This document shows, in pieces, positions 4,821 through 42,624 of a stretch of DNA of 53,007 bases (within the stretch, counting starts at the first letter, position 1; each line of letters begins with the position of its first letter). Origin of the DNA: an uncultured Gammaproteobacteria bacterium. GTDB lineage: Bacteria; Pseudomonadota; Gammaproteobacteria; Arenicellales; JAANXG01. Under the pieces are notes generated by a model. That model searched no databases. It saw nothing but the letters and a program-made list of their open reading frames with translations, and was not told the DNA's origin. The stretch is taken from NCBI GenBank assembly GCA_947259175.1, contig CAMYKW010000016.1, forward strand, positions 1 through 53,007. The letters are read 5' to 3'. Made by a program: the position numbers and the translations under genes.

Positions 4821-4932
4821 TATGTTGTGAAGACGCGCGCGCCCGGAAGGATGACCTCCCTTCGGTCGGCGGGTCGTCGTTCAATTTCCCGCCAACTTCG
4901 CTGATCGTTGTTGAACATCGGCAAGAAGCTAA

Positions 4933-5187
4933 CCCGCATTTCTCACCAGGATCCCGGATGCTGGCGAAGAGACCGGGCGACTGGACGCCGCGCTGGAACG
5001 AAACCCATAGCCGTCGCTATGGGTTGAGTGAAGCGCAAGTGCAGGCGTTCGAGATCGAGCCAGGGCCGGGATAGGCGGGATTGTCTCAACACGGTGTATT
5101 TCATGAATTCGGCACAGAGCTGCGCCTGCCGGCATTGCCCCGCGCCGCTCCGGGCTTGATCGGGGACTGTCGGGTGAGAACGCGCCG
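4933..5187. repeat. non-coding repeat element, relative of the one at 17.6 kb
   Basis: Bases 4933-4966 match 17580-17613 exactly (34 bp). A 10-bp hairpin follows (5002-5011 with 5016-5025, around CCCATAGC/GCTATGGG), and a tail ends CCAGGGCCGGGATAG at 5060-5074, like 17795-17809. In the outer pair of the hairpin, A-T here is G-C in the other copy, so pairing is kept. A degenerate right end resembling the terminal inverted repeat (GGTGAGAA) may lie near 5173-5187. The two 108-bp inserts of the 17.6-kb copy are absent. The gap from 4821 to 5190 holds no gene. Confidence 0.65.
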
Positions 5188-5190
5188 TCG

Positions 5191-16541: not shown

Positions 16542-17543
16542 CTAGAGCCTTTCAATCACCGCATCCGTGAACTCCCGGGTGCCGGCTTCACCGCCCAGAT
16601 CGCGTGTGATGCGATCGCCGCTGGCGATAACCTTCCTGATCGCGGTACGGATGCGCTTGGCTTTCTCGGACATGTCCAGTTGGTCCAGCATCAACGCCGC
16701 CGCCAAGATCAGAGCCGAAGGATTGGCGATCTTCTTTCCCGCAATGTCCGGCGCCGAACCGTGCACGGCTTCGAAAATCGCAACTTCATCGCCGATGTTG
16801 GCGCCGGGCGCCATACCCAACCCACCGATCAATCCGGCGCATAGATCGGAAATAATATCGCCAAACAGATTCGTCGTGACAATGACGTCAAACTGGTGCG
16901 GATTCATCACCAATTGCATACAGGTGTTGTCAACAATCATCTCGACGCTCTCGATATCGGGATACTGTTTGGCGATCTCTCGCGCCACATTGAGAAACAA
17001 ACCGGATGTCGCCTTGAGAATATTCGCCTTGTGCACGACGGTGATTTTTTCCCGATTACGCCGTTGCGCCAGCTCGTACGCGAATCGAATCACGCGTTCC
17101 GAGCCGGCGCGCGTAATCACGCTCACTGATTCGGCCCGCGATCCATCCGGAGAAGTTTCCTGGCGTTCTCCGGAGTACATTCCCTCGGTGTTTTCGCGAA
17201 TGGTGATTATGTCGATATTGTGATAACGCGACTGCACCCCGGGACGTGTAATGGCGGGGCGCACGTTGGCGTAGAGATCAAAAATCTTGCGCAGCTGAAC
17301 ATTGATCGACGCAAACCCCTTACCCACCGGCGTCGTCAATGGCCCCTTGAGGGCGACGCCGTTTGCGCGAATAGACGCCAGTGTCTCTTCAGGCAAAATG
17401 TCTTTGCCCGCCTCGGAGGCAGCGACACCCGCCAGTTGGGTGTCGTAGCTGAAGCCGCAGTCCAACGCATCCAGCACGCGAAGCGCGGCGTGCGTAATCT
17501 CAGGACCGATGCCGTCGCCGGGAATTACTGTAATAGGACGCAT
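16542..17543 (-). CDS. NAD-type isocitrate dehydrogenase (isopropylmalate dehydrogenase family)
   Basis: This 333-residue protein converts isocitrate to 2-oxoglutarate in the citric acid cycle. It has the short form of the family (GDGIGPEIT start, KGPLTTPVGKGFASIN, RENTEGMYSGERQ, VVHKANILKATSGLF, VDNTCMQLV, NLFGDIISDL, AVHGSAPDIAGKKIANP). SIN in the substrate loop and TEGMYSG favour isocitrate over isopropylmalate or tartrate; homoisocitrate dehydrogenase is the nearest alternative. The nested repeat element begins 33 bp upstream of the start, so the promoter lies in or beyond the element. Confidence 0.88.
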   Translation of the reverse strand: MRPITVIPGDGIGPEITHAALRVLDALDCGFSYDTQLAGVAASEAGKDILPEETLASIRANGVALKGPLTTPVGKGFASINVQLRKIFDLYANVRPAITRPGVQSRYHNIDIITIRENTEGMYSGERQETSPDGSRAESVSVITRAGSERVIRFAYELAQRRNREKITVVHKANILKATSGLFLNVAREIAKQYPDIESVEMIVDNTCMQLVMNPHQFDVIVTTNLFGDIISDLCAGLIGGLGMAPGANIGDEVAIFEAVHGSAPDIAGKKIANPSALILAAALMLDQLDMSEKAKRIRTAIRKVIASGDRITRDLGGEAGTREFTDAVIERL

Positions 17544-17625
17544 ATACCCCTCGTGTACTTAGTTGAAATCCATGACTAGCCCGCATTTCTCACCAGGATC
17601 CCGGATGCTGGCGCAGGAGTCGTGC

Positions 17626-17733
17626 CCAGCTACTATTCTCAGCAATCCACATCAGGAATTTAGGCTGTCTCTTCATAGAATTGACGTCACGAGTCTTTCC
17701 GATGCATGCCGGGAATAGTAGCTGGGCGCCTGG
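17626..17733. repeat. 108-bp repeat unit, copy 1
   Basis: It begins CCAGCTACTATTC and carries the complement GAATAGTAGCTGG close to its other end, so it has 13-bp inverted ends of its own. Nine differences from copy 2 by eye, about 92% identity. Confidence 0.85.
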
Positions 17734-17810
17734 AGCGAGACCCATAGCGAGCTATGGGTCGAGTGAAGGCCAAGCGCAGGTGCGCGAGGACCAGCCAGGG
17801 TCGGGATAGT

Positions 17811-17918
17811 CCAGCTACTATTCTCAGCAATCCACATCAGGAATTTAAGCTGTCTATTCACATAAATGACGTAACGAGTCTTTCAGGTGCATGCCAGGAA
17901 TAGTAGCTGGGCGCCTGG
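17811..17918. repeat. 108-bp repeat unit, copy 2
   Basis: Same orientation and same length as copy 1, with the same 13-bp inverted ends. Its last bases run into the right terminal inverted repeat of the whole element. Confidence 0.85.
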
Positions 17919-17931
17919 TGAGAAATGCGGG

Positions 17932-18366
17932 CTAGCATTGCTGCCACGGCAAACCGTCATGCCGCCAGCCGGAGATCGTGCTGCGTCGATGATTGTCGTC
18001 CAGCGGGCCTTCGAACCCGGTATCGACGTGGCACACGTTTTTTATCCCCGACTCGATCAACGCCCTGCCGGCTTCAACGGAGCGACGTCCACTGCGGCAG
18101 ATGAGTATCACCGTCGGCGGATCGTCCTCTTCGGCACCCAAAAAACCGCCGAGCAACACCTCACGCACCTGCGCCACGAAGCGGGGATTCACCGTCCAGT
18201 CGGGCTCATCCAACCATGGGATATGAATGGCGTCGCGCGGATGCCCGATCATCAGGTGTTCCATCGTGGAGCGGATATCGATGAGCACCGCCTGCGGGTT
18301 ATTCTGCAGCAGTTCAAAAGCCGCTTTCGGCGATACGTCCTGGGGCCGTGGGGCATCTTTACTCAT
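17932..18366 (-). CDS. rhodanese-like sulfurtransferase
   Basis: A 144-residue single-domain rhodanese. The active-site loop CRSGRRS is at 90-96 with catalytic Cys90; VLIDIRSTMEHLMIGHPRDAIHIPW is the usual entry motif and VDTGFEGPLD the usual exit. Such proteins carry sulfur as a persulfide for tRNA thiolation, iron-sulfur assembly or sulfur oxidation. The TAG stop (17932-17934) lies inside the terminal repeat of the neighbouring element, so the last residue and the stop come from the element. The ATG has GGAG six bases upstream. Confidence 0.9.
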   Translation of the reverse strand: MSKDAPRPQDVSPKAAFELLQNNPQAVLIDIRSTMEHLMIGHPRDAIHIPWLDEPDWTVNPRFVAQVREVLLGGFLGAEEDDPPTVILICRSGRRSVEAGRALIESGIKNVCHVDTGFEGPLDDNHRRSTISGWRHDGLPWQQC

Positions 18367-18432
18367 GGCATTCTCCGTCAGATCGAATACGACACTGCTA
18401 TTCTAGCCAAACTTATGGGCGTATAAATATTA

Positions 18433-27588: not shown

Positions 27589-27665
<77 letters not shown>

Positions 27666-42539: not shown

Positions 42540-42624
42540 TGGTGCCGAAGGCCGGACTCGAACCGGCACGGCTTGCGCCACCGCCCCCTCAAGACGGCGT
42601 GTCTACCAATTCCACCACTTCGGC
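42540..42624 (-). tRNA. leuU: tRNA-Leu (GAG)
   Basis: An 85-nt class II tRNA with encoded CCA. Anticodon loop TTGAGGG gives GAG; the D-arm GGTGGAATTGGTAGACACG and the long variable arm are typical of tRNA-Leu. It begins three bases after the secG stop, probably on the secG transcript. E. coli leuU has the same anticodon and the same position after secG. Confidence 0.95.

Follow-up and report, generated by a model that had tools for sequence, protein, structure and literature searches.

A structured MITE with IS1380-type ends that carries two copies of a second, smaller MITE in a gammaproteobacterial genome

The usual view of bacterial MITEs is that they are what deletion has left of insertion sequences (ISs). 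Short mobile DNAs of another kind, the REPINs, depend on RAYT proteins. REPINs are short hairpin elements that have no transposase gene of their own (PMC3116915). The pneumococcal repeats BOX, RUP and SPRITE are folded and insert into one another, BOX being modular in construction, and the pneumococcal models, when applied to three other genera, are reported to have identified no cases (PMC3049150). In Coxiella burnetii, the MITE called QMITE2 is described with an IS1111 inserted in it (PMC5896051), and TIMEs and mosaic non-autonomous transposons are described as mosaics that derive from the Tn3 family and are moved in trans (PMC4133298). Among eukaryotes, the piggyBac superfamily makes a 4-bp duplication of the TTAA type, with TTAG and CTAA variants, and the IS1380 family serves as its outgroup (PMC10813416). 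Searches of the open-licence literature by concept and by literal end sequences returned no report that we recognised as describing the elements presented below, and these searches yielded no report of a MITE with an interior fold that crosses phyla and ends that differ.

The window, by which we mean the whole 53,007-nucleotide stretch of DNA that was analysed, belongs to an uncultured gammaproteobacterium whose assembly comprises 4.18 Mb in 121 contigs (97.7% complete). An earlier note on this DNA had described a nested, transposase-less element of 360 bp with perfect 22-bp inverted ends, in which two 108-bp units of about 92% identity flank a 77-bp middle. The overall design is confirmed (Table 1), and some of the dimensions need correction. 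The edges of 17576-17935 do form a perfect 22-bp inverted repeat, made of CTAG and the 18-nt sequence CCCGCATTTCTCACCAGG, and the element is non-coding: no open reading frame of at least 100 amino acids is contained in 17580-17931, and the frame at 17887..18426 (+) starts inside and runs out. The units are a direct pair (17626-17738 and 17811-17923; 113 nt, 90% identity, spacing 185), each bounded by 13-bp perfect inverted ends (CCAGCTACTATTC) as described, but their 100-nt cores (17626-17725 and 17811-17910) are 91% identical and their length is better given as 102 bp, with one extra base on each side as stand-alone copies suggest. The 10-bp hairpin proposed for the middle is present (17739-17748 and 17751-17760), in an interval between the 102-bp units that measures 83 bp (17727-17809) rather than 77 bp. 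When folded, the element lies 12.4 SD below shuffled sequences as RNA and 8.65 SD below as DNA. Rfam scans at gathering scores, which covered the window and ten loci, matched only tRNAs. At permissive settings, the element and two relatives returned either no match or matches far below gathering, mostly to microRNA-type hairpins, the best being mir-2068 (23.5 bits, E 0.0065, where the gathering score is 99). With inverted ends, a target duplication and many copies, and without a transposase gene, the outer element is a MITE.

Table 1. Features of the window that bear on the nested element, with coordinates counted from the first nucleotide of the window
Feature	Position	Strand	Basis or remark
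Outer element, non-coding, 360 bp	17576-17935		22-bp perfect inverted edges, including CTAG
Target duplication CTAG, left copy	17576..17579		Orthologous site in G001 (L337) is empty, with one CTAG
Left terminal inverted repeat CCCGCATTTCTCACCAGG	17580..17597	+	15 of the first 16 bases are those of one end of an IS1380-family IS (L312/L334)
Rod (domain 1), 5' strand, interrupted by unit 1	17598..17624	+	Alignment A1 and pair counts
Unit 1, 102-bp inner MITE YCCAGCTACTATTC...GAATAGTAGCTGGR, left site	17625..17726	+	Stand-alone relatives exist
Remainder of rod (domain 1), with tip hairpin 17739-17760 and 3' border GGGATAG	17727..17809	+	R1 match
Unit 2, 102-bp inner MITE, in the position of outer-element domain 2	17810..17911	+	
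Right end, with terminal inverted repeat at 17914-17931	17912..17931	-	
Target duplication CTAG, right copy	17932..17935		Includes, at 17932-17934, the TAG stop of the - strand rhodanese-domain gene
Rhodanese-domain gene, stop codon used as target	17932..18366	-	Pfam PF00581, ORF list
Isocitrate/isopropylmalate dehydrogenase gene, neighbour	16542..17543	-	Pfam PF00180; anchor for finding orthologous sites
Second outer-element copy, unit-less, flank CTAA, right end decayed	4929..5190 (right border approximate)	+	R1 match
Two tRNA genes	27592-27665 and 42543-42624	-	Only gathering-score Rfam matches in the window

The outer end is matched at 116 places in the host genome when up to three mismatches are permitted, compared with 2 for a reversed control pattern. 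Among the matches listed, at least 37 pairs have ends less than 700 bp apart (one of these, L083, has four mismatches and is spurious), and at least 49 complete units can be counted on the same terms. The assembly breaks at this family, with 14 outer ends lying within 100 nt of a contig end (for example L094, L110, L111, L049, L063, L067 and L109) and runs of N inside some copies, and thus all copy numbers are lower bounds. As the earlier note anticipated, the parts are not fixed in every copy. Five copies have no unit (239-242 bp end to end), several have one unit at the right site (250-263 bp) and three have two units (352-355 bp; the window element, L070 and L096), with a truncated fourth in L101. 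The relative near 5 kb in the window likewise has the left outer end and the middle and no units, as had been stated, although its right end has decayed. Six short copies of 165-171 bp (L065, L076, L086, L097, L098 and L100) have only the left arm and the right end, with one unit between them. Since subtracting the unit spacing of 185 from 352 leaves 167, copies of this size are the expected product of recombination between two direct units, and they probably arose in this manner. Other copies are plain deletions or chimaeras.

The CTAG at each edge had been offered as a possible target duplication, and both the flanks of other copies and the empty sites in relatives bear this out. Equal 4-bp flanks are present in 26 of the 37 end pairs (22 CTAG, 2 TTAG, 1 TTAA and 1 CTAA), whereas shuffling the right flanks among copies gives a mean of 18.5 equal pairs and reaches 26 in none of 10,000 trials. 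Because CTAG is palindromic and favoured, most of these equal flanks cannot by themselves separate duplication from site preference, and only three of the 26 are non-palindromic (2 TTAG and 1 CTAA). Equal flanks other than CTAG number four against 0.30 expected, again with none of 10,000 shuffles reaching the observed value. Among the 11 unequal pairs, six differ by one base and five, including the spurious L083, by more. Empty orthologous sites were found in three of the five same-genus relatives, all at the stop codon of the rhodanese-domain gene, where G001 has a single CTAG, G005 has CTAA and G004 has TTAA. On the basis of these empty sites, the window element landed on the stop codon of this gene. 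At the orthologous site of G002, the stop codon is TGA and there is no YTAR. The encoded protein ends in PWQQC in all six genomes (the window and the five same-genus relatives), followed by TAG in the window, G001 and G005, by TAA in G003 and G004 and by TGA in G002.

Both strands of YTAR contain a stop codon, and therefore an insertion at a stop codon supplies its own stop. In 15 of the 26 equal-flank copies, a flank coincides exactly with the end of an open frame of 100 codons or more, compared with 21.8% of 491 control YTAR sites in flanking DNA; as these controls include intragenic sites where an insertion would be harmful, the enrichment may reflect survival instead of targeting. The symmetric stop within the target is a simple reason why such elements can land at gene ends with the protein left intact. 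In G003, a different outer-type element (L338, 2539-2733), unit-less and degenerate, occupies precisely this rhodanese stop codon, between flanks CTGG and TTAG. Either this site has been used repeatedly or an old insertion has been lost elsewhere.

The 102-bp unit has a distribution of its own. The host genome has 114 occurrences of its exact ends, G002 has 12 and G004 has 7, and the seven other genomes searched have none; among the latter are G001, G003 and G005, three of the five same-genus relatives, all of which have the outer end. If the unit is mobile, it should also be found outside the outer element, as the earlier note had reasoned, and this is what we observe. Of the complete units in the host-genome stretches, which number at least 49, 34 are in the context of an outer element (for 19, between the rod end and the right end) and 15 lie outside recognised contexts of this kind, a count that takes L292 and L297 as stand-alone even though they abut ends of other outer families. 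Exact 4-bp duplications at the 102-bp borders accompany three of the 15, namely the two units of a tandem pair in the form CTAA-unit-CTAA-unit-CTAA (L274) and a unit between TTAG and TTAG (L288). Two others have flanks that are one base short of a duplication (L051, TTAG/CTAG; L294, CTAA/CTAG). Ten of the 15 directly abut a YTAR at one or both borders (background 0.0021 per position); L275, L281, L284, L290 and L292 have none. The 102-bp unit is thus a separate MITE with its own inverted ends and its own YTAR duplication. The two families, which the earlier note supposed to be unrelated, may yet be related, for both duplicate YTAR and start with YCC. Certain YTAR-less units adjoin GGGACCGT on the left (L281 and L290) or ACAACGGYCCC on the right (L284 and L290), as if the unit in L290, and in part those in L281 and L284, lay in the tip of yet another hairpin family.

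Units also fall into subfamilies. The two units within one element are 73% identical in L096, 78% in L308, 88% in L070 and 91% in the window, while unit 1 of the window and unit 1 of L070 are 99% identical. This divergence within elements, taken together with the near-identity across copies, suggests that units entered outer elements more than once and that filled outer elements were later copied. A single inverted unit was noticed, in L098. No autonomous partner with unit ends appeared among the listed unit-end matches from the host genome and nine relatives or in the stretches that were inspected.

Nesting is therefore real, and it is mainly that of the unit in the outer element. The proposal that one small element had been inserted twice into another holds as regards its presence at two sites, but neither site is a simple insertion. 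When the sequences are compared by eye, the right unit begins after GGGATAG and ends before CGCCTGG, in place of domain 2, and the left unit takes the place of 11-13 bp of the 5' strand of the rod. The unit thus appears to have replaced the variable domain 2. The further suggestion that the two families use each other as landing sites is borne out in this one direction. Candidates for the reverse arrangement are L285, where a unit stops after about 46 nt at a CTAG and is followed by the IS1380-like end CCCGAATATTGCACCAAGG, with the contig ending before the other side is reached, and the abutting pair in L297. In another gammaproteobacterium, an element with IS1380-like ends can be seen by eye within the rod of an outer-type element (L190:4470-4874 and L216:408-683), so such pieces do land in one another. 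Other guests recognised by eye are a hairpin, GTAGGGTGCGCCATGCGCACC, lodged with its inverse in the outer-element rod (L165:1914-2225 and L177:6696-7006), which we take to be REPIN-like, and another module of about 70 bp in outer-type elements of L156, L226 and L243.

The middle of the element, in which the earlier note saw only a hairpin, is a conserved fold common to two phyla. We aligned 31 hand-picked unit-less elements (alignment A1), of which 27 come from 70 listed end pairs and four are host-genome copies; the excluded pairs differ in length, contain additional modules or show no recognisable core, some of them having only their ends in common. Nine of the 31 rows, from four bins, are Acidobacteriota by record title or taxonomy. 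In the consensus fold, a closing stem formed by the inverted ends leads into a long rod of about 125 nt (segments of 126-130 nt throughout), and both-side changes are found in 27 of 50 pairs. Pairwise identity of the rod falls as low as 31% (median 52%). Of its cells, 95.0% are paired compared with 81.3% after shuffling, a level that none of 500 shuffles reaches. The covariation score of the rod is 0.389, against 0.150 for shuffled alignments (0 of 500 reach it) and at most 0.091 when the structure is slid, with the provisos that kinship of sequences can exceed shuffles without any structure and that a structure taken from its own alignment is favoured over slid versions. Folded singly, six of seven sequences lie 5.9-9.9 SD below shuffles and L158 only 1.8, and small G/A internal loops can be seen by eye to flank the tip stem on either side in most of these folds, L214 being an exception. 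GU pairs outnumber AC by 86 to 21 in all rows and by 26 to 8 in nine representatives. This excess leans towards the + strand acting as RNA or folded DNA, and it is modest when set against 34.6 to 20.3 for shuffled partners. The rod points in the same direction as the gene whose stop is used in eight cases and in the opposite direction in seven, which does not support selection of the rod within the mRNA of host genes. A fold kept for so long probably serves the mobility or upkeep of the element. Uses we can think of are binding of a transposase or host factor, protection of a transcript and aid to excision when the DNA is single-stranded.

Outer ends are also found in at least 114 stretches of named genomes from Gammaproteobacteria, Acidobacteriota and other groups. 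R1, a covariance model of the rod alone that was built from 20 of the 31 A1 rows, gives 40 matches among 80 of these stretches, Acidobacteriota included. Within the host genome, R1 scores 102.9 bits (4951-5078) for the unit-less copy at 4929 and 107.6 for L077, which has one right unit, and it scores 53.8 (17696-17813), 56.3 and 58 bits for the two-unit elements of the window, L070 and L096. In a sample of 274 genomes from the class, the model matches 33, representing 29 of 222 genera. In a phylum-level sample it matches 20 of 299, namely the host genome, one other member of the class and 18 genomes that all belong to a single family outside it. Since metagenome bins make up many of these records, an apparent jump between phyla could result from mis-binning; for Acidobacteriota, this is countered by nine rows of the alignment that come from four bins and have a divergent rod type of their own.

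Around 14 of 31 R1 loci, but around none of 90 random places in the same loci, there is an inverted repeat with at least 11 of 14 bases matching and a YTAR on both sides; the flanks are equal in ten of these 14, and 17 of the 31 loci lack the combination. The R1 match begins 16-20 nt inside the left end in all 14. The ends themselves differ (CCCTCATATCTCACCAGG, CCTGCATATTGCAGCTGT, CCCGGAAGTTGCATGAAG, CCCGGATTTTTCATGAGG and others), which indicates that the rod is a part of its own that stands behind different IS1380-like ends. R1 has no match in six IS1380 loci (L121, L122, L123, L310, L312 and L334), and the idea that the rod is an IS1380 leftover is unsupported as far as these tests go. Plasmids and phages were considered as carriers, and blastn gave no match in either for the unit-less relative L144 and none in plasmids for the window element.

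The ends suggest the IS1380 family as the probable source of the transposase. In a single-contig genome of the order (G040), an IS1380-family IS of 1784 bp is present in three copies, and the two that were examined are flanked by TTAG/TTAG (L312) and CTAG/CTAG (L334) and share the ends CCCGCATATSTCACCAA. Over the first 16 bases, its individual ends, CCCGCATATGTCACCAA and CCCGCATATCTCACCAA, share 14 and 15 with the outer-element end. A further IS1380-family IS, in L310, has TTAG on both sides. L123, from a sister genus, has one end, CCCGCATTTCTCACCG, that matches 15 of 16 bases. L122 has CTAG on both sides and matches 13 of 16. Thirteen IS1380 loci were searched for ends; a convincing pair was obtained only in L310, L312 and L334, and L121-L123 were assigned by inspection. 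The best agreement with the outer end was the 15 of 16 of the L312/L334 right end and of L123, with no autonomous IS among these loci carrying exactly the 18-bp outer end. The host genome has one full-length match to the IS1380 transposase profile PF13701 (C24:50454-51722), none being in the window element, and the ends of this IS, CCYGGATATTGCACGA, match the outer end at only 11 of 16 bases. Pfam searches found three PF13701 matches in G004 and one weak match in G003, and 29 of 109 genomes of the order have one. The outer element bears IS1380-like ends and the 4-bp duplication but has no transposase, and is accordingly not a member of the family, even though its ends are of that kind. Mobilization in trans by an IS1380 transposase is therefore a proposal that draws on the likeness of ends and target. 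G001, G005 and G008 have many outer-end matches and no match to PF13701. G008 and G012, members of the same family, have 219 and 124 outer-end matches (up to one mismatch), and in G008 the outer ends have expanded without a visible IS1380 partner.

Several other readings of the units deserve consideration. We regard it as extremely improbable that the 360 bp are one fixed element whose units arose by internal duplication rather than from a second mobile family. The two window units do share direction and most of their sequence, and the 99% identity with unit 1 of L070 means that a unit-bearing outer element was copied. However, a fixed element would not come with zero, one or two units, nor would paired units diverge as far as they have in L096 and L308, nor would the unit ends be missing from G001, G003 and G005 where the outer end is present. 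The 15 of 49 complete units that lie outside, three with exact YTAR duplications, speak against it as well, and we treat it as ruled out by stand-alone units with duplications such as those of L274 and L288. Less readily dismissed, though still improbable, is a unit that is not mobile at all but is a cassette, swapped at hairpin positions by recombination at its inverted ends, with stand-alone copies as the exception. Such swapping would account for the replacement, rather than extension, of domain 2, for the inverted unit of L098, for the 12 of 15 stand-alone units without an exact duplication and for the failure to see an autonomous element among the listed matches. Recombination at the unit ends does not predict that 10 of 15 stand-alone units are flush with YTAR, and the tandem arrangement of L274 also speaks against it. 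We favour a mobile unit.

Comparable questions surround the mover and the rod. IS5-type transposases also have a YTAR target, and a family of this sort might move these elements, in which case the resemblance to IS1380 would be coincidental. The abundance of outer ends in G001, G005 and G008, where PF13701 has no match, is what such a mover would lead us to expect, but IS1380 ISs share both 15 of 16 end bases and the 4-bp YTAR duplication, and in other genera the rod elements have ends that are variations on this pattern; we judge this alternative to be quite improbable. The rod could also be a by-product of hairpin DNA, shaped by foldback gene conversion or cruciform repair and not by selection. 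Known repair routes preserve complementarity in long inverted repeats, and neither the lack of a preferred direction relative to the gene nor the modest GU excess demands more than this. Against it, the 31-sequence consensus has internal loops that stay unpaired between stems with compensatory changes, the loops adjacent to the tip are seen by eye in most of the seven single folds, and the length of the segments is nearly constant. We consider a by-product unlikely, though it is the alternative that we take most seriously.

The explanation that best fits all of these observations, and one that we hold to be likely, is that the locus is a non-autonomous, IS1380-ended transposon of about 240 bp that carries two non-autonomous elements of 102 bp. 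Its basic form would be an inverted end, a structured rod, a variable domain and a second inverted end, and it presumably moves by cut-and-paste through its IS1380-type ends with transposase supplied in trans. On landing it duplicates a 4-bp YTAR target, as the flanks and empty sites show, and at a stop codon it regenerates the stop. The 102-bp unit would have taken the place of domain 2 after GGGATAG and of part of the 5' strand of the rod, and, judging from the many copies with identical junctions, the lodged unit would now be copied with the outer element. Recombination between direct units would then yield the 165-171-bp forms. In the nested units, hitch-hiking of one non-autonomous element on another can be counted.

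We judge this to be a new structured MITE family with nested cassettes. A broader view, which we advance tentatively and at somewhat less than even odds, is that the outer element belongs to an undescribed, phylum-crossing family of mobile structured non-coding elements, in which a selected rod of about 125 nt with covarying stems and loops in fixed positions, acting as RNA or folded single-stranded DNA, is combined with exchangeable IS1380-type ends and hairpin cassettes. If true, this would be a structured satellite that adapts to any available IS1380 transposase and has stop codons as safe landing sites. One fold that occurs in two phyla with varying ends is hard to fit with the usual reading of MITEs as deletion remnants, and the claim that the interior of the element acts in mobility or upkeep is testable.

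Several known systems lie close to these elements. The IS1380 family (PF13701) has the ends CCCGCATATSTCACCA and the 4-bp YTAR duplication seen at the window element, but the latter lacks a transposase and its rod model finds no match in the six IS1380 loci. REPINs differ in that the elements described here have DDE-type ends and a 4-bp duplication. The piggyBac superfamily is eukaryotic, and the available portion of the source mentions neither a structured rod nor nested cassettes (PMC10813416). TIMEs, as far as that account extends, are non-autonomous mosaics like those described here but do not have IS1380-type ends (PMC4133298). The guest of QMITE2, in the case described, is a full IS, whereas the guest here is itself non-autonomous and is present twice (PMC5896051). 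In comparison with BOX, RUP and SPRITE, at least as these are presented in the relevant part of the source (PMC3049150), the rod, ends and cassettes vary separately here, and the rod crosses phyla. The short non-coding elements treated in a review likewise have inverted ends, a target duplication, strong folding and IS-like ends (PMC10969869). What sets the present elements apart from those is an interior fold that is conserved across genera and two phyla with differing ends, rather than the remnant of one IS, and a second MITE family that is carried as cassettes.
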